Positions 2,101 to 29,802 of a stretch of DNA of 49,014 nt are shown here, in pieces. How positions within the stretch are numbered: the first letter of the stretch is position 1; each line of letters opens with the position of its first letter. The stretch covers positions 1 to 49,014 of the IMG/VR virus record IMGVR_UViG_3300017963_000355; one strand, written 5' to 3'. The notes beneath the pieces were generated by a model, which saw only the letters and a list, made by a program, of their open reading frames with translations, made no database searches and was not told the origin of the DNA. The translations under genes and the position numbers were made by a program. This DNA is from a virus.

Positions 2101-4329
2101 ATGGCGAACGCGCAACTTCTCGCCAGCAAGATCGTGGTGACGGAGGAGGAGCCCAGACTCCGGACCATCCCGGCGGCCCCCACGGCCGTCATCGCGGCCA
2201 TGGGTGTGGCGGAGCGGGGACCCGTGAGGACTCCCACCCTGGTCCAGTCATGGGAGGACTTCCTCAACACGTTCGGCGGATTCATCACGGACGGCGATCT
2301 GGCCATGGCCGTGTATGGGATCTATCGCCAGGACCCCGGGGCCTCCGTGTGGGTCACCCGTGTGGTCCACTACGATGACCTGACGGACCCGGACAACCCG
2401 GACAGCTCCGCCGCCACGGTGGACCTGGACGGGACCACGGCCACGGCCGTGGGTGGGGCCGTGACCTCCGGGAATGCTGGGCCGTTCAACCTGGAGCCTG
2501 GACAGACCCTGGTCATCCACTGCGATGAGGATGGAGGCGGCCCGGACACGGTGACGTTCAACGCCACCAGGGCCACCGTGGCCGGAGCCGGCCTGGCCAT
2601 CGTGGACCTGACCGGCCTCACCCTGGTCATCACCGTGGACGGTGGGGACCAGCAGATCATCACCTTCGCCGGGACGGAGGCCACGGCCCAGGACGTGGCG
2701 GACACCATCAACGCCAGCCTCCTGGGGGGTGTGGCCATCGTCAACGCTGGGGAGGTGGACCTCTACGGGGACGTCCGGGGAGCTGGTGGCAACATCACGA
2801 TCGATGCCAGCTCCACGGCCCTGGCGGAGATCGGCCATTCTGCCGGCTCCACGGACGGGACCGGGACCTCCGGCCTCCTGGACATCAACGCGGTGACGGC
2901 GGCGGAGGCCAAGACCATCATTGAGGCCGGGGTCACCAATCCCGTCACCGGTGTGACGGTGACGGAGGAGACGTCCGGGGCCATCACCATCACGTCCAAC
3001 ACCACCGGGGTGGCCAGCTCCGTCCAGGTGGAGGTGGCCTCCACGGCGGCCGGGTTCGGGTTTGACAACGATCTCCACCAGGGATCGGCGGAGTCCACCG
3101 GACCCGTGGTCACCGTGGACGGCAAGTATCACGGGACCTATGCCCAGGACCTCACCGTGGACGTGGAGGAGGCCACCAACGGGGACGCGGACTACTTCAA
3201 CCTGTCCGTCAAGACCAGTGACGGCCTGGTCCTGGAGATCTTCCCCAACCTCCAGGTGGCCGATGACACGGCGGCGGACTTCATTGAGGCCGTGGTCAAC
3301 GCGGAGACCGGCGGATCGCGCTACATCACCGTGACGGACCTGGGGACCACCAACAGGCCGGACGATCAGTCCGTGGTCCCGGCCGGCGGAGACGATGGGA
3401 TCACCAGCCTGGCCCCGGCGGACTTCGTGGGGGACTCGGCTGGCGGGACCGGTGTCCACGCCTTTGACACCGTCCAGCTCATCACCCTCCTCATCGCCCC
3501 TGGCCAGGCTTCCGCGGCCGTCCAGAACAAGCTGGTGGAGTATTGTGAGTCCGAGCGGCAAGGGTTCTGCCACGCCCTCCTGGACTCGCCGGAGGCCAAC
3601 ACGGCGGCCCAGGTGGTGGCCTACATGACCAGCTCCGGCCTGAAGAACCTGTCCGAGCATGGCTCCATGTATTGGCCCTGGATCAAGGTCCTCAACGTGG
3701 ACAAGACCGTGTTCGGATCGGAGGAGGAGATCACGGTCCCGCCGTCCGGCTGGATCGCCGGGGTCATCTCCAGGACGGACGCCAGCTCCCCCGGCGGGAT
3801 CTACCAGCCGGCGGCTGGAATCGAGCGGGGACGGATCTTTGGCTGTCTCGGGTTTGAGACGGATGATGTCCTCCGTGAGGAGGTCCGGGACCTGGTCTAC
3901 CCGGAGCGGATCAACCCCATCACCACGGAGCCGGGACTCCCGCGCTACCTGGACGGGATCTGGACCCTGAAGGGTGGGGGAAACTTCCCCACCGTCCCGG
4001 AGCGGAGGGCTGCCAGCTACATCGAACGCCAGGTCAAGTCCGGCCTCCAGTTTGCGCGACACAGCAACAACGATGAGGCCCTACGGGCCAGGGCCTTCCG
4101 GACCGTGTTCGCGTTCCTCTACACACAGATGAACCTGGGGGCCTTCCGGACCCGGGTCCCGTCCACGGCCTTTTTCGTGGACTTCTCGGAGGCCCTGAAC
4201 CCCCCGTCCGAGATCAACCAATACAAGCTCAACGGCCGGATCGGCTTGGCCACACAGAAGCCGGCGGAATTCATCGTCCTGAAGTTCTCACAGGACACCA
4301 GGGCCTTGGAGGAGGAGCTGGCCGGCTAG
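2101..4329 (+). CDS. Contractile tail sheath protein
   Basis: 742-residue tail sheath subunit that polymerises around the tail tube and contracts during injection. The N-terminal domain (about 1-95) has the sheath pattern of VVTEEEPRLRTIP, then ERGPVRTPTLVQSWEDFLNTFGG. The C-terminal domain (about 600-742) has IERQVKSGLQFARHSNN, RTVFAFLYTQMNLGAF and a final KPAEFIVLKFSQD, all typical of sheath proteins that bind the tube. Between them, residues about 100-450 are an unusually large, acidic, Thr/Gly/Asp-rich beta region with repeated DVADTINASL-like segments. This is probably an inserted surface domain, which makes the protein longer than T4 gp18. The tube gene follows directly. Confidence 0.92.
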   Translation: MANAQLLASKIVVTEEEPRLRTIPAAPTAVIAAMGVAERGPVRTPTLVQSWEDFLNTFGGFITDGDLAMAVYGIYRQDPGASVWVTRVVHYDDLTDPDNPDSSAATVDLDGTTATAVGGAVTSGNAGPFNLEPGQTLVIHCDEDGGGPDTVTFNATRATVAGAGLAIVDLTGLTLVITVDGGDQQIITFAGTEATAQDVADTINASLLGGVAIVNAGEVDLYGDVRGAGGNITIDASSTALAEIGHSAGSTDGTGTSGLLDINAVTAAEAKTIIEAGVTNPVTGVTVTEETSGAITITSNTTGVASSVQVEVASTAAGFGFDNDLHQGSAESTGPVVTVDGKYHGTYAQDLTVDVEEATNGDADYFNLSVKTSDGLVLEIFPNLQVADDTAADFIEAVVNAETGGSRYITVTDLGTTNRPDDQSVVPAGGDDGITSLAPADFVGDSAGGTGVHAFDTVQLITLLIAPGQASAAVQNKLVEYCESERQGFCHALLDSPEANTAAQVVAYMTSSGLKNLSEHGSMYWPWIKVLNVDKTVFGSEEEITVPPSGWIAGVISRTDASSPGGIYQPAAGIERGRIFGCLGFETDDVLREEVRDLVYPERINPITTEPGLPRYLDGIWTLKGGGNFPTVPERRAASYIERQVKSGLQFARHSNNDEALRARAFRTVFAFLYTQMNLGAFRTRVPSTAFFVDFSEALNPPSEINQYKLNGRIGLATQKPAEFIVLKFSQDTRALEEELAG

Positions 4330-4389
4330 ACGCGGCCCATGACGATGGCCGGGGCCGTCCAGGCGGCCCTCCGGCCCAGGAGGTGACAC

Positions 4390-4854
4390 ATGGCGGTCCT
4401 TGGTGAGGTGACGCGGTTTCAGCACAAATACCGCTTCGACGTCCAGATCGATGACTTCCAACACGCAAGGTTCCAGACCTGTTCGGAGCTGTCCGTGGAG
4501 GCGGCCAAGATCGAACATTGGGAGGGGGGCTCCCTCATCCCCTACAAGGAACCCGGCCGGCTGACCTTCACGGACGTCACCCTGGAGCGGGGGGTCACGG
4601 TGGACCGTGACCTCTATGACTGGTTCCTGGAGGTGGCGGACGCGGTGGCCAACACCGGACGGGTGATCCCCAAGTTCAAGCGAGACGTGGACATCGTCCA
4701 ATACGGCCGAAACGGATCAGTCCTCCGCCGGTGGACCCTCCTGGGGGCCTGGCCCGTCAAGTTTGTGGCCGGGGAGTGGTCCAACGATGATGACGGGGTG
4801 GTCATCGAATCCCTCACCCTGACCTTTGACCTGTTCAAGCGTCCGGAGGACTAG
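4390..4854 (+). CDS. Tail tube protein
   Basis: 154-residue protein of the T4 gp19-like tail tube family, which stacks as hexamers to form the inner tail conduit. Diagnostic features are FDVQIDDFQHARFQTCSELSVE near the N-terminus, where the strand leads into the ring, a KIEHWEGGSLIPYKEPGR loop, LTFTDVTLERGV, and a C-terminal SLTLTFDLFKR strand. Length and position after the sheath are standard. An AGGAGGTGACAC ribosome site precedes the ATG. Confidence 0.88.
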   Translation: MAVLGEVTRFQHKYRFDVQIDDFQHARFQTCSELSVEAAKIEHWEGGSLIPYKEPGRLTFTDVTLERGVTVDRDLYDWFLEVADAVANTGRVIPKFKRDVDIVQYGRNGSVLRRWTLLGAWPVKFVAGEWSNDDDGVVIESLTLTFDLFKRPED

Positions 4855-4939
4855 GCCCTCCTGGACATGACCCCCAACCGATTGGACGGGGGAACAGGCG
4901 GAGGCCAGTCCCCGTCCAGGTAGAGGAAAGGCAAGGACC

Positions 4940-5839
4940 ATGAGCAATCACGCCAACCACCAGGCTGATCCCCTTGGAGCTGAGGAGGCGGCCCTCCGGG
5001 CGGCCCAGGAGGCTCCAGGAGGCCCGGAAGGCCGGGAGGACCCCAGGCCCGTGACGTCCAGCTCCCTGACCGTGGAGGCCCCGTCCGGCCTCACGGTGAG
5101 GGTCCGGAGGCTCAAACTCCGGGAGCTGAACATCCTGGCCAACCGAAAACTGGCCAAAAAGGGGACATCCATCACGGAGCTGTTGAGGTCCGTGTGGGAG
5201 GAGACCCTGGACCCGGGGATCTACCAGCCCCCCTTTGTGGAGTGGCCGGAGAACAGCTCCGGCCAGGTGGTCCCCAGGTGGGACCAGGTTCTGATCGGGG
5301 ACCGGACACACATCCTCCTGGCCATCCGGGAGCTGTCGAGGGGGCCGGAGTATAGCTTTGAGGTCACGTGTCAGGGTCCGGCCTGTCGCCGGACGATTCC
5401 CTGGACGGTGGACCTCCGAAAGCTGGAGCGTCATGGCCTGTCCGATGAGGCCAGGACCAAGCTGACGGGGGATGGGGAAAACCTGTTCTACCGGGACCTC
5501 CCCTACTCCGGACACAAGGTGGCGTTCCGCCTCATGACCGGGGCCGATGAGGCCCAGGTGGCCAAGGTGGCCTCACAGGACGGAGGGGAGGCCATGGTGT
5601 CCGCCTCCATCCTCCTCCGGCTCCCCTACGTCTCCGGAGCTACCAGCCCCCGGGAGCGTAGGGACTTCGTGGAGGACATGGACCTGGAGGATGCGGCCTG
5701 GCTCCAGGACCAATGGGAGGCGGCGGACGTCATGGTCCAACAGGAGATGGAGGTGGAGTGTCCACATTGTTGGAGGACCCAACGTGTGGCCATCCCCTTT
5801 GACGCGGATTTTTTCTGGCATCGCTCATCCCGGGGCTGA
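4940..5839 (+). CDS. Tail assembly chaperone, zero-frame product
   Basis: 299-residue protein between tube and tape measure, the position of the G-type tail assembly chaperone in tailed phages. The N-terminal 35 residues are Ala/Glu/Pro-rich and probably disordered. Two cysteine pairs (Cys144 and Cys149 in CQGPAC; Cys274 and Cys277 in ECPHC) look like one split zinc knuckle, as in gp26-like baseplate/chaperone proteins of large myoviruses. It stops with a short tail after FDADFF. The codons for the two Phe are a slippery site that feeds a longer -1 product (see 4940-6021). It is preceded by AGGTAGAG at 4918-4925. Confidence 0.75.
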   Translation: MSNHANHQADPLGAEEAALRAAQEAPGGPEGREDPRPVTSSSLTVEAPSGLTVRVRRLKLRELNILANRKLAKKGTSITELLRSVWEETLDPGIYQPPFVEWPENSSGQVVPRWDQVLIGDRTHILLAIRELSRGPEYSFEVTCQGPACRRTIPWTVDLRKLERHGLSDEARTKLTGDGENLFYRDLPYSGHKVAFRLMTGADEAQVAKVASQDGGEAMVSASILLRLPYVSGATSPRERRDFVEDMDLEDAAWLQDQWEAADVMVQQEMEVECPHCWRTQRVAIPFDADFFWHRSSRG

Positions 5840-25043: not shown

Positions 25044-26219
25044 ATGGCACGGAACACGGACACCAACGGCAAGGCGGCCACCAAGGCCAAGGGACGCGGC
25101 TCCAGGGCAAAGAAGGCCAAGGCCACCAAGGCCACCAAGGCCCCGGCCCAGCCCTCCACACCGATCCAGGACTTCAAGGCCACCGTCTCCGGTGAGGGTG
25201 AGGTGGTCAGCTACATCCTGGGCTGGGCCTTGAAGGGAGCCCAAGGGGACTACAACCACCTGGAGGAGCTGGCGGCCAAGGCCGGCCTGGACAGCTACCT
25301 CCCCTCCTGTCCCACCCATGAGGCCAGGCTCCGCCGGACCCTCACCAAGATCAAGTCCGGCCACGGGGTGACCTTCAAGCGGATGGACAAGGACCCGGAC
25401 GCCCCCGGCTGGATCACCTACCGGCCGGAGAAGATCAAGGCCAAGGTCATCTCCAAGGCCACGGACGCCAGGTTCCGCCAGGACCAGGCCATCAAGACCG
25501 GCCGGGGTGTGGCCATCAACACGGACACCGGGGAGATGGTCCTGGAGGACACCGGCTCCGATCTCTTGAAGGCCGTGGCCCAGGTCTACGGGGACCTGGA
25601 GGGCCAATTCAACCATGACACCGTTTCCGGGTGGCTCCACCGGGTGATGGAGCGTCACTTCAACGCGGCCCCGTTCCCGGCCACCGGCGGAGCCCACATC
25701 ATCCCGGCCGGCCCCAACACGGGGGAGGAGCTGGCGGCCCTCCGCGGGATCGTTGAGTCCATCGGCCGGTCCACCTTCGACTATGAGGACTTCCGGAAGG
25801 CCACGGCCATGGCCTCCAACGCGGCCCAGGGCCTCCTGGGGGGACAGTGGACCAGCATGGTGGAGGAGCTGGAGGGGTTCCTGTCCAGCTCCCTGGAGGG
25901 TGACTTGACCCACCCAACCGGGTTCACGGCCAAGCTGGCCCAGGCGGAACAGCTCCGGAACAGGATGGCCCTCTACGGGAAGATCCTGGACACGGACAAG
26001 GCCGGGATGGAGAAGGCCCTCCAGGCCATGACGGACGCCACGGCCACCCTCCTGAAGGCCACCACGGAGGCCCGGTCCCTGAAGAAGGCCAAGGGGAGTG
26101 AGCTGGCCTCCAAGCTGGCCAAGGACACGGTGGACCAGGCGGCCAAGGACGCGGAGACCAAGCTCCAGGAGGCCAAGGCCCTGTGGTCCCCCGTCCACGG
26201 CAACGGCAACGGCAACTAA
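25044..26219 (+). CDS. Unknown protein with H1-like basic tail, first gene of MoxR-VWA operon
   Basis: 391 residues. The first 40 are a Lys/Ala/Thr-rich histone-H1-like tail (repeats such as KKAKATKATKAP). A folded region of about 40-240 includes VVSYILGWALKGAQGDYNHLEELAAKAGL, YGDLEGQFNHDTVSGWLHRVME and GGAHIIPAG. The C-terminal 150 residues are helical. The layout vaguely recalls phage proteins of the DUF6744 type, with low certainty. It sits just upstream of a RavA-like ATPase and a ViaA-like VWA gene, so it may be a substrate or partner of that pair. AGGTAGAG directly abuts the ATG. It ends in TAA, a stop rarely used here. Confidence 0.65.
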   Translation: MARNTDTNGKAATKAKGRGSRAKKAKATKATKAPAQPSTPIQDFKATVSGEGEVVSYILGWALKGAQGDYNHLEELAAKAGLDSYLPSCPTHEARLRRTLTKIKSGHGVTFKRMDKDPDAPGWITYRPEKIKAKVISKATDARFRQDQAIKTGRGVAINTDTGEMVLEDTGSDLLKAVAQVYGDLEGQFNHDTVSGWLHRVMERHFNAAPFPATGGAHIIPAGPNTGEELAALRGIVESIGRSTFDYEDFRKATAMASNAAQGLLGGQWTSMVEELEGFLSSSLEGDLTHPTGFTAKLAQAEQLRNRMALYGKILDTDKAGMEKALQAMTDATATLLKATTEARSLKKAKGSELASKLAKDTVDQAAKDAETKLQEAKALWSPVHGNGNGN

Positions 26220-26245
26220 GGACACGGAAAGGTAGAGGTAGAGAC

Positions 26246-28243
26246 ATGGCAACCAAGACCAAGACAACCAAGGTGAATGAGACCAAGGCCCTGGCCTCCC
26301 TGGCGGACCTCCGGAGCCAGCTCCCCCAGGCCGTGATGGAGCGGCGGGACGTGGCGGACGGCCTCCTCATCTCCCTCCTGTCCGGGACCCACATCCTTCT
26401 CCTGGGCCTCCCCGGGACGGCCAAGTCACTCATCATCCGGCTCACCTGCAAGGCCATCACGGGAGCGGAGTGGTTCTCCTGGCTGTTGACCAAGTTCTCC
26501 ACCCCGGAGGAGATCTTTGGACCCTACGATCTCCAGGGTCTCAAAGTGGGGAGCTACAAGCGGATCGTGGACGGCAAGCTCCCCACGGCTCACGTGGCCT
26601 TCTTGGATGAGATTGACGGCGCTTCGGCGCGACAGGTCTCCTTCGCCCGGTAACGGACGATGAAACAAGGCGGCTATATGCTGGAACACCCGAGTATCCG
26701 AAGCTACCTGAGCCTTACCAGCTCCGCTGTGGTGACAATGCTTCGGTGCGGACAATCAGCCGGGAAGTCGTGGTTGACCCCTCAGAGACTACACGCCGCC
26801 CCCCTTGCGAAGCATTCGAGCATGGCAGTTGACACAGAGTCCGTGGCCCTGGTGGCGACGGTCTTTTGTCCCACACTCAACGCAGCAATCGTAATCCCTG
26901 GACCAGTATCCGTTGGCTCGTGTCTTCTTCGAGGCCATCAACTGACCTCGGTGTTGGTTGATGTGACAAGACCGACAGGACGGGACGAGTCTTTCAGGAT
27001 CGTGTCCAGGCTGGAGTCCCATCGCCTCGTTTGTGCGTCCGTCTCCATCAAGGTGGTGGACGATCTCAGCCTTGGCTCCACAGAAATGACAGCGACCATC
27101 TGTTGTGGACAGGATGTCCTCACGGTCGGTTCCAAAGTGACGGGTTTCTCGTCTTTCCTTGGTTGTATCCTTGAAGGACGGATCATCCTTCATGTTGTCG
27201 TATCGAGCCTTGGCTTTGGACTTGAGCTTGTCAGCGTTTTTTCTGTAGTAATCACGATTGTAGCTGCGTTGATCGAAAGCCATGATACCTCCGTTGCATC
27301 ATTGAATAACGCTACCACGAACGCAACGGTCTGCAAGGGTGAAGATATAGTCCAGTCCCCATGGCGACATGGGGTGGCCTACTGCTTCAAGGCCAACTCC
27401 GCCATCCTCAACGCCCTCCTGACCATCCTGGAGGAGCGGCTGTTCCACGATGGGACGGCGGCCCACCGGACCCCCCTCCTGACCCTGGTGGGGGCCTCCA
27501 ATGAGCTACCGGAGGATGAGTCCCTGGCGGCCCTCCATGACCGTTTCCTCCTCCGGTTCTGGACGGACTACCTCCAGGACGATGACAACTTCGTGGACCT
27601 CCTGGACCCGGCCTTTGACCCCACAACCAAGGTCACGGCCACCATCTCCCTGGAGGAGCTGGCCCACCTCCAGGCCAAGGTCCGGACCGTCACCGTCAGC
27701 CGGGAGATCCGTGAGACCATGCTGGCCATCCGCCGGGACCTGGCGGCGGACGGTGTGGTGGCGTCCGATCGCCGGTGGAAGGCCGCGATCCGGGGCCTCC
27801 AGGCCAAGGCCCTCCTGGAGGGACGTGACCACGTGGTGACCAGTGACCTCCTCCTCCTCATCAACATCCTGTGGGAGACCAGGGATGAGCTGGCCAAGGT
27901 CCGGGACGTGGTGGGCCAGGCGGCGGACCCGATCCTGGCGGACGCCCTGGAGCTGGCCGATGACGCCAAGGCCACCCTGAAGGACATCCGGGACCAGGCC
28001 CCCCAGGACGCCAGCTCCCTGGACGATCGGCTGGCCTTTGTCAAGGTCATCATGGAGGGCTCCGGCTCCCTGAAGGCCACCACGGACGCGATCTACTCCC
28101 GCCTGGGCCGGAGTGGCATGACCCTGGACACGGCCACCCCGGAGGTCCAGGAGGCCATGGGCTCCGCCCTCCGGACACAGGAGGAGCTGGAGCGGATGGC
28201 CATGGCCTACTCCATGGGCCAGGTCAACGGGGTGGCCCGATGA
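26246..28243 (+). CDS. RavA-type MoxR AAA+ ATPase, split by a group I intron
   Basis: Exons 26246-26613 and 27385-28243 join in frame to a 408-residue MoxR-family AAA+ ATPase, closest in motif to RavA. Walker A is GLPGTAKS (residues 54-61). KFSTPEEIFGP follows. Walker B is FLDEI joined across the splice to FKANSAILNALLTILEER. Sensor 1 is LVGASNELPEDESLAALHDRF. The C-terminal 150 residues are helical and carry no sensor-like residues I can name. Such ATPases remodel protein complexes with a VWA partner, encoded next with a 4-base overlap. Two overlapping AGGTAGAG motifs (26230-26243) precede the start. Unspliced RNA would stop at 26651-26653. Confidence 0.85.
26614..27384 (+). mobile_element. 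Group I intron (771 nt) with antisense HNH gene
   Basis: Removing it restores the RavA-like reading DEIFKANSAIL. The exon ends in T (26613) and the intron ends in G (27384), as group I introns require. R-like CAGAGACTACACG (26783-26795) and S-like AAGATATAGTCC (27342-27353) give P7 pairing GACTA/TAGTC (26787-26791 with 27348-27352). Exon GAGAT can pair with GTCTC (26636-26640) as P1, closed by a C(UUCG)G hairpin (26619-26630). A P9-like stem CCCCATG-GCGA-CATGGGG with a GNRA loop lies at 27357-27374. GACAATCAGCCGGGAAG (26751-26767) resembles the Q region. The motifs look like subgroup IA. Confidence 0.88.
26789..27283 (-). CDS. HNH homing endonuclease, antisense within the intron
   Basis: 164-residue HNH nuclease, the only convincing minus-strand gene in the window. 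It has a basic Tyr/Lys-rich N-terminus, then CHFCG, the HNH core VHHLDGDGRTNEA and LVPSCRSCHINQHRG, and a C-terminal zinc module (CCVECG and CVNCHAR). The start is supported by a GGAGGT ribosome site 3 bases upstream on the minus strand. The gene occupies the P8 loop. Its stop codon TAG is the complement of CTA inside the intron's own P7 strand, so catalytic RNA and coding end overlap. It presumably cuts intronless alleles of the ATPase gene. Less GC-rich than neighbours. Confidence 0.87.
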   Translation of the reverse strand: MAFDQRSYNRDYYRKNADKLKSKAKARYDNMKDDPSFKDTTKERRETRHFGTDREDILSTTDGRCHFCGAKAEIVHHLDGDGRTNEAMGLQPGHDPERLVPSCRSCHINQHRGQLMASKKTRANGYWSRDYDCCVECGTKDRRHQGHGLCVNCHARMLRKGGGV

Positions 28244-29802
28244 CCCCCAGGGACGCCAGGGCGGAGCGGGAGACCCGGAGCCAGGTCCTCCACGGTGAAG
28301 ACCTGTGCTACCGGACCTCCAGGCTCCAACGTCGCCACTACCAGGCCGTCCGGACCACGGCGGACGGTGTCCGCCAGGCGGAGGCCCAGGGCCGGGACAA
28401 GCTGGGGACCTATCCCACGTTCCTCCGTGAGACGTTCGCGGACCTCTACTCCGGCGGACGGTTGTCCAAGGTGGAGCCCTCCACCGGTGACCCGGCGGCG
28501 GCCACCGTGTCCAAGCTCCACCAGCTCCGGAGCCAGGTCCCGGAGATGGAGCGGCTGGCGGCCCGTTGCCGGGGTGATAATTTCAACGCCACCCTGGCCA
28601 CCACGGCCGTGGCCCAGGGCCTTGTGGACCAGGTCCCGGAACACACCAAGGACGTCCAGAAGGCCCGTCAGTCCCTCCAGGCCCTCCAGGCCCTCCAGGC
28701 GGACGGACAGGACCTCCCCCAGGACCTCATGGACCAGGCCCAGGCGGAGGTCCAGGCGGCGGAGATGGAGGCCACGATGGCGGCGGAGGGCCTGGACGAA
28801 GGCTCCATCCGGGTGGCCCTCCGCCAAGCCGTGGACCAGGCGGCCGATCAGATTGAGGCCATGGATACGGCCCTCCAGGTGATGGGATGGGGGACCGGGG
28901 CCGGGACCCCCTCCGATGGTGAGGCGGCGGAGACCAAGGCCCAGGTGGCCAAGGCCCTCCAGGACGCCCCCAAGCTCCGTGACCTGTTTGAGCTGGCCGG
29001 CCGGATGAGGCTGATCGCCAGGCGAGTCCAGGCGGAGAAGGTCCGTCACGGAGCCGGTGAGCTGGCCAACGTGGAGACCGGGGCGGACGTGGCCAGGATG
29101 CTCCCGTCCGAGGCCATGATGATGGTGGACTCGGACCTGGAGGCCCTGTGGCTGAAGTCCTACGCGGAACGCGGCCTCCTCCAATACCAGCTCCAGGACA
29201 AGGACCCGGCCGGCAAGGGTCCCGTGGTGGTCCTGGTGGATGACTCCGGCTCCATGGGTGGCCGGCCGGAGTGTTGGGCCAAGGCCCTGGCCGTGGCCCT
29301 CATGGACCTGGCCCGGGACCAGGGCCGGAGCTTCGCCCTGGGGACGTTCTCCAGCTCCATGGGAGTCAAGATCGTGGAGACGGACGCGGACCGGCTGGAC
29401 ATCCCGGCCACCCTCCGAGCCCTCACCCCGTTCATCGGCGGCGGGACCAACTGGTCCGCCCCCTTGGCCTGGGGGCTGGAGGTCATCGAAGGGGAGCGGG
29501 ACCTCCGTGAGGCGGACGTCATCCTCATCACGGACGGCCTGGCCAGGCTGTCCCCCCAGGAGGCCCAGGTGGTCCGTGACAGGGCCAAGGCCCTGGACGC
29601 CAACATCCTGGGGATCGTGGTGGAGAACCCCAGGGGGGACTCCCCAGGCCAGGCCGGTGAGCCCTCCGGCCCGATCGCCAACGCCCTGGGGGCCTTCTGT
29701 GACCAGGTCCACACCCTGGCCGGCCTGGTGTCCGAGGATGGCCAGGACACCAAGGGCCGTCCCCGTGACGGCCAGGTCCTCCACGCGGCCCTGTCCATCT
29801 AG
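28240..29802 (+). CDS. VWA-domain protein, ViaA-like partner of MoxR ATPase
   Basis: 520-residue protein overlapping the ATPase stop by 4 bases. The N-terminal 300 residues are helical and Ala/Gln/Glu-rich. From about 325 a von Willebrand A domain follows with a full MIDAS: DDSGS (Asp334, Ser336, Ser338), a GGGTNWS threonine motif and LITDGLARLS. The C-terminal part continues ALDANILGIVVENP. A RavA-like ATPase followed by a VWA protein is the ravA-viaA arrangement, where the pair acts on membrane or metal-enzyme targets. In a phage the target is unknown; possible roles are virion assembly, DNA-complex remodelling or host takeover. Confidence 0.82.
   Translation: MTPRDARAERETRSQVLHGEDLCYRTSRLQRRHYQAVRTTADGVRQAEAQGRDKLGTYPTFLRETFADLYSGGRLSKVEPSTGDPAAATVSKLHQLRSQVPEMERLAARCRGDNFNATLATTAVAQGLVDQVPEHTKDVQKARQSLQALQALQADGQDLPQDLMDQAQAEVQAAEMEATMAAEGLDEGSIRVALRQAVDQAADQIEAMDTALQVMGWGTGAGTPSDGEAAETKAQVAKALQDAPKLRDLFELAGRMRLIARRVQAEKVRHGAGELANVETGADVARMLPSEAMMMVDSDLEALWLKSYAERGLLQYQLQDKDPAGKGPVVVLVDDSGSMGGRPECWAKALAVALMDLARDQGRSFALGTFSSSMGVKIVETDADRLDIPATLRALTPFIGGGTNWSAPLAWGLEVIEGERDLREADVILITDGLARLSPQEAQVVRDRAKALDANILGIVVENPRGDSPGQAGEPSGPIANALGAFCDQVHTLAGLVSEDGQDTKGRPRDGQVLHAALSI

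Follow-up and report, generated by a model that had tools for sequence, protein, structure and literature searches.

The window analysed here is the whole of IMGVR_UViG_3300017963_000355, a linear virus record in IMG/VR, 49,014 bp long, with a G+C content of 0.67. Its genes for tail sheath, baseplate and tape measure proteins mark the source virus as a contractile-tailed phage. These genes, as well as those for a primase-helicase and for recombination, are on the + strand, as are all the main ORFs checked. The record is metagenomic, and pattern searches of IMG/VR returned no second contig with the same locus.

A MoxR-type (bpMoxR-type) AAA+ ATPase gene of this phage is split into two exons. 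Exon 1 (26246..26613, + strand; 368 nt, i.e. 122 codons plus 2 nt) carries the Walker A (LLGLPGTAKS) and Walker B (VAFLDE) motifs and matches Pfam PF20030 (4e-26), AAA_5 (2e-11) and PHROG 19600 (positions 49-156). Exon 2 (27385..28243, + strand) continues these profiles, with matches to PHROG 19600 positions 158-387 and PF20030 positions 107-204 (2e-23), and also matches AAA_lid_8. In PHROG 19600, PF20030 and NCBIfam RavA alike, exon 1 runs to position n and exon 2 starts at n+2, the one profile position in between being absent because the split codon falls there. That codon is number 123 (AT before the interruption, C after it), directly past the Walker B acidic pair. When the exons are joined, the frame passes from ...VAFLDEI into FKANSAILNALLTILEERLFHDG... 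and terminates at TGA, the joined ATPase sequence being VAFLDEIFKANSAILNALLTILEERL. An earlier note on this DNA had claimed that deleting 26614-27384 restores a conserved sequence and that the interruption lies within codon 123 at Walker B, and had proposed an alignment with intronless homologues. The joined exons do give DEIFKANSAILN, and the exon profiles and the homologues agree on the position: the ATPase gene is contiguous at codon 123, without insert, in 4/4 homologues (the IMG/VR contigs L420, L421 and L422, and L423, which is Moorella phage MTATph1).

The next gene (28240..29802, + strand) overlaps the ATPase stop and encodes a VWA protein, the partner of the ATPase (PF13519, 2e-9; ViaA-like, 5e-21). 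Thus, the features by which bpMoxR is recognised among MoxR-VWA systems are all found here: PF20030 on both exons, Walker A and B motifs, and an adjoining VWA gene. Against the RavA equivalog NF010054, exon 2 scores 124 bits and does not reach the curated cut-off of 681. Judged from its sequence, the split gene product is a bpMoxR/AAA_5 ATPase; the earlier description as a RavA-like ATPase gene of a phage stands for the MoxR-type ATPase and for the phage, and for RavA only loosely. The literature searched gave no relevant case of a MoxR gene with a group I intron, in agreement with the note on MoxR/RavA genes, and the MoxR-type ATPase is apparently a new host gene for such introns. This is unsurprising, because group I introns commonly sit in conserved catalytic codons. 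A 391-aa gene without family matches precedes the ATPase and VWA genes (25044-29802), and in the IMG/VR relatives L420-L422 long ORFs flank the ATPase on both sides. The 391-aa, ATPase and VWA genes may form a conserved three-gene module.

The interrupting element is 771 nt long (26614..27384, + strand) and is supported by RF00028 and the family alignment. Both splice-site rules hold, as had been claimed: T26613 precedes the intron and G27384 ends it. A lax Rfam search matched the group I model RF00028 over its full length to 26599-27374 on the + strand (40.6 bits, E=1e-8), so that the covariance check proposed earlier did return a match, though one below the Rfam gathering score of 50 bits. 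A whole-window Rfam search at the gathering score gave no matches because the intron scores below it. Against the same model, relatives whose P8 loops are loaded reach 37-49 bits (L016, 37.4; L221, 40.3), and the long P8 insert probably depresses the score here.

All the elements of the ribozyme lie on the + strand. Read from the sequence by eye, P1 (26609..26640) pairs exon GAGAU (26609-26613) with the IGS GUCUC (26636-26640), places a U26613.G26636 pair at the 5' splice site and encloses an inner hairpin, GCGC-UUCG-GCGC (26619-26630). P2 (26647..26656) is the hairpin CCG-GUAA-CGG, also read by eye, and GNRA loops cap both P2 and P9. Helices P3-P9 are all consistent with an alignment of 51 introns. 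In that alignment, P3 (26669-26673/26796-26800) and P5 (26690-26692/26749-26751) show several compensatory pair types, and compensatory changes also back P8, with its 5' arm CCCUUGC (26802..26808) and 3' arm GCAAGGG (27333..27339), and P9, the hairpin CCCCAUG-GCGA-CAUGGGG (27357..27374). P4 (26680-26684/26756-26760) and P7 are invariant, and P6 occupies 26762-26781. The P7 5' strand GACUA (26787..26791; the same in 51/51) pairs with UAGUC (27348..27352), which lies within GAAGAUAUAGUCC. On this sequence evidence, 26614-27384 is a group I intron, as the earlier note had read it.

That reading, a ribozyme inserted in Walker B, stands, but it had overlooked an antisense HNH gene in P8. An ORF of 164 aa (26789..27283, - strand) sits in the P8 loop and runs opposite to the ribozyme and to the ATPase gene. 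Its translation matches the PHROG HNH families 589, 119 and 8048 (3e-5 to 6e-5) and carries CHFC...IVHHLDGD...LVPSCRSCHINQH, which is a canonical HNH layout, with another zinc ribbon towards the C terminus. The frame is intact over the 164 aa and includes the catalytic motif residues and the Zn pairs. The Pfam HNH model gave no match to the ORF at E<=0.1, and a single-sequence AlphaFold model of the protein was poor (pLDDT 46). A ribosome binding site, GGAGG (27288..27292, - strand; sequence AACGGAGGTATCATG), is located 4 nt before the ATG, and CUA in the P7 5' strand supplies the stop codon TAG as its complement. ORF length alone is modest evidence, because shuffling the intron gave an ATG ORF this long in 35/5000 shuffles. 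A scan of the - strand found no sigma70-like promoter, other promoter types being outside the scan's coverage, and a minus-strand transcript is not automatic since the main ORFs checked elsewhere are all +. No second copy of the HNH gene is present elsewhere in the 49,014-bp record, peptide-pattern searches of IMG/VR returned no relatives of the HNH protein or of exon 2, and tblastn of the HNH protein against named phages gave nothing below 1e-5, the weak matches being to phiH and mycobacteriophage HNH. Most likely, 26789-27283 (-) encodes a putative HNH homing endonuclease.

The intron belongs to a recognisable family. Its P6-P7 core shares 45/46 nt with the nrdE introns of Lactococcus phages LW81 and P1048 (L001 and L002), which likewise have an HNH gene in the P8 loop; there, however, the HNH gene is sense, is unrelated by tblastn to the 164-aa HNH and lies in another host gene. 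The exact core pattern had no match in IMG/VR, but looser patterns did, and the core pattern was found at 17 IMG/VR loci and 57 genome loci, the latter mostly Patescibacteria with some DPANN archaea. CPR rRNA introns (23S/16S) with LAGLIDADG genes have been studied (PMC11270868). Among the genome loci (L141-L197), 17 have an endonuclease-sized P8 ORF; these CPR rRNA introns resemble the present one in belonging by pattern to the same core family and in holding the ORF in P8, and differ in that they are mostly from Patescibacteria, that the ORF is sense in 17/17 and that in 15 it ends on the TAG of P7 3'. The G+C content of the intron is 0.55 versus 0.67 for the phage genome, and GC3 of the HNH gene is 0.59 versus 0.86 for phage genes; these low values are consistent with a recent arrival of intron and HNH gene by horizontal transfer. 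Three further loci with the same core (L005, L018 and L020) have a 317-nt P8 loop with one ORF on each strand (sense, 102 aa; antisense, 116 aa), and neither ORF is recognisable as an endonuclease.

Among the loci fetched, the best relative of the HNH protein is encoded at L122 (IMGVR_UViG_3300037195_001026; E=8e-10, 26% over 125 aa), in an intron of a metallophosphatase-like gene. The Rfam match to the L122 intron is weak and falls into two parts (27.7 and 24.3 bits), but inspection by eye clearly shows the core motifs, P9 and the interrupted exons. Both HNH proteins match phrog_119, 589 and 8048, both genes lie in P8 and end on a P7-derived TAG, and the P8 arms are alike (CCCCTTG/CAAGG in L122, CCCTTGC/GCAAGGG here). 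The L122 gene differs in being sense and in taking its stop from the P7 3' strand. Read on the other strand, P7 5' (GACTA) gives TAGTC, the same sequence as P7 3', and therefore a P8 gene that runs into the core meets TAG either way. With a TAG at the core edge in both directions, a backwards endonuclease gene in P8 can spare the ribozyme. Among sense ORFs, the stop falls exactly at the P7-derived TAG in 10/41 viral cases, alongside the 15/17 in genomes, while the opposite-strand P7-derived stop is seen in the 164-aa HNH ORF and in L221. The two P8 arms form an inverted repeat and would still pair if the DNA between them were flipped, so that a change of orientation in P8 would be mechanically easy.

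Antisense endonucleases were surveyed in a set of 310 distinct introns with a recognisable core, in which the longest P8 ORF was scored if it reached 100 aa. Sense predominates, being the orientation of the longest P8 ORF in 41 viral and 17 genome introns; it is antisense in the present intron and in 4 other viral introns, and three of these four ORFs are recognisable endonucleases. These are an HNH in L221 (Pfam HNH, 9e-10), a GIY-YIG in L391 (1e-5) and a LAGLIDADG in L417 (LAGLIDADG_3, 5e-9), with host genes that are interrupted on both sides and that by eye, from their translations, are metallophosphatase, class I glutamine amidotransferase-like and major capsid-like, respectively. In all three, RF00028 matches the strand opposite the endonuclease ORF. 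L221 shares the present layout, with an antisense P8 HNH gene whose stop is at the same P7 position, and differs in its HNH subfamily and host gene. The unselected antisense count is 3 of ~44 viral P8 ORFs, the present intron having itself been chosen, and sense ORFs were checked only partly by profile, with motif scans missing some endonucleases. L005 was excluded from the count, its longest P8 ORF being antisense but without an endonuclease motif.

Antisense genes are also found outside P8. In L231, a viral tmRNA gene (4030-5140) is split in the T arm by a group I intron with an antisense HNH (ORF 4572-5078, - strand) on its 3' side, and the 3' acceptor end of the tmRNA gene lies past the ORF. 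In L017 (copy L021), a capsid-like gene is interrupted by an intron whose 5' domain holds an antisense LAGLIDADG-like ORF (PHROG 5046, 2e-15). At least five further viral introns (L221, L391, L417, L231 and L017) thus have putative antisense homing-endonuclease ORFs, the cases being confirmed by Pfam or PHROGs for the ORF and by Rfam for the intron strand. An antisense LAGLIDADG at L046 was dropped, as it is upstream of its intron and outside it; large antisense ORFs across the motif in L044, L055, L073 and L085 appear to be ordinary genes that match the motif by chance. At L340, an antisense LAGLIDADG ORF (4482-5330) overlaps P7 3' with its C terminus; the 3' exon was not located in L340, which may be another intron of this kind. 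Closely spaced group I introns at L307 (3073-7150) carry several sense HNH ORFs, with one antisense HNH between them (5111-5548). L231 also contains a weak match to the type-P1 twister ribozyme (1694-1745; 43.4 bits, gathering 67.2).

Nuclear rDNA introns of myxomycetes (Dir.S956-2 and Dsq.L2066) carry antisense endonuclease genes, for which antisense expression is reported (PMC9548176, PMC3679873). As in the present intron, the endonuclease gene opposes the ribozyme strand and lies in a peripheral loop; unlike it, they are eukaryotic introns of groups IE/IC1 in nuclear rDNA, with His-Cys box enzymes, spliceosomal introns and polyA signals, whereas the phage intron has an HNH gene within a protein gene. 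A term search of open-access papers, reviews and databases among them, found no mention of an antisense gene inside bacterial, archaeal or phage introns (PMC3984707, PMC11835236, PMC6125680, PMC2988022, PMC11878797, PMC11270868), and earlier reports elsewhere are possible. In the literature searched, antisense intron endonucleases are described only for nuclear rDNA introns. The locus holds an ordinary phage group I intron with an unusual antisense endonuclease, part of a wider pattern that is seemingly unreported.

In our preferred reading, to which we assign a probability of about 0.8, the group I intron is mobile and its endonuclease gene has a transcript of its own, read from the opposite strand; splicing, expression and homing are the predicted steps. 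The + strand RNA, in which the core is seen in sequence, would fold into the ribozyme, and the intron would leave the ATPase mRNA by two guanosine-initiated steps. The HNH protein would be made from its own ribosome site and a putative - strand promoter, apart from the ATPase message. It would most likely nick or cut the intronless ATPase gene near the junction of GATGAGAT and CTTCAAGG, and repair of the cut would copy the intron into the intronless allele. The HNH transcript, being complementary to P3, P7 and P8, could disturb splicing.

It is also conceivable, if rather unlikely, that the intron splices while the antisense HNH gene has decayed or fallen silent and is a mere relic; the intron would then be immobile or mobilised by an endonuclease encoded elsewhere. 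Degenerate, silent intron endonucleases are common, and the empty sigma70 scan of the - strand and the weak profile scores of the ORF would fit with one here, but the intact frame, catalytic residues, Zn pairs and good ribosome site argue for a working gene, as does the lack of a second HNH gene copy in the record. An assembly chimera, in which a minus-strand HNH segment was wrongly joined into the intron, is very improbable: the locus does come from a single metagenomic record for which no second contig was found, yet the P8 arms match one another and lie exactly on either side of the ORF, which ends within P7, and L221 repeats the layout with the same stop position. The + strand is itself open from 26660 to 28243 (527 aa), through the intron and into the exon 2 frame, 771 being divisible by 3, and the chance of such openness given the GC3 of the HNH gene is ~0.025. 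Both observations would suit an insert that belongs to the translated ATPase, either as an in-frame insertion or as an intein-like element. However, unspliced translation from exon 1 stops at a TAA in the P2 loop, upstream of P3 (26651-26653), which separates the + ORF from exon 1, and ribosomes should therefore not traverse the ribozyme core. With that TAA and the covariation of the core, the intein or read-through reading was rejected; the ATPase homologues without insert also speak against it, and we give it next to no credence. Because it aligns codon-on-codon opposite the HNH gene, the 527-aa ORF is most simply the shadow of that gene, a reading that leaves its low odds unexplained.

For the mobile intron with a separately transcribed endonuclease, the antisense layout could have arisen by inversion of the P8 loop between the P8 arms of an intron with a sense endonuclease. 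L122 points in this direction, since its P8 loop holds the nearest HNH relative found as a sense gene, with similar arms and a shared P7-derived TAG, but the proteins are only ~26% identical, the arms are just 7 bp and independent invasion in either orientation is equally possible, so that we regard an inversion as doubtful. Less likely still is the broader proposal that phage introns take endonucleases both ways, P7-P8 being palindromic, with loop flips that keep the P7 stop and antisense RNA that also tunes splicing of the host gene.

In accounts of phage and bacterial group I introns, the endonuclease genes are treated as sense passengers. With three endonuclease families antisense in P8 and others on the 5' or 3' side, it would follow that orientation is free. 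The antisense cases would mean that endonuclease expression is separable from the host transcript, and they link the symmetry of the ribozyme (P7) with the structure of the gene (stop codons) in a simple, testable way. Annotation pipelines that consider only the sense strand would overlook part of the mobile introns. At 26660-28243, automatic callers would likely annotate a truncated ATPase with a false N terminus.
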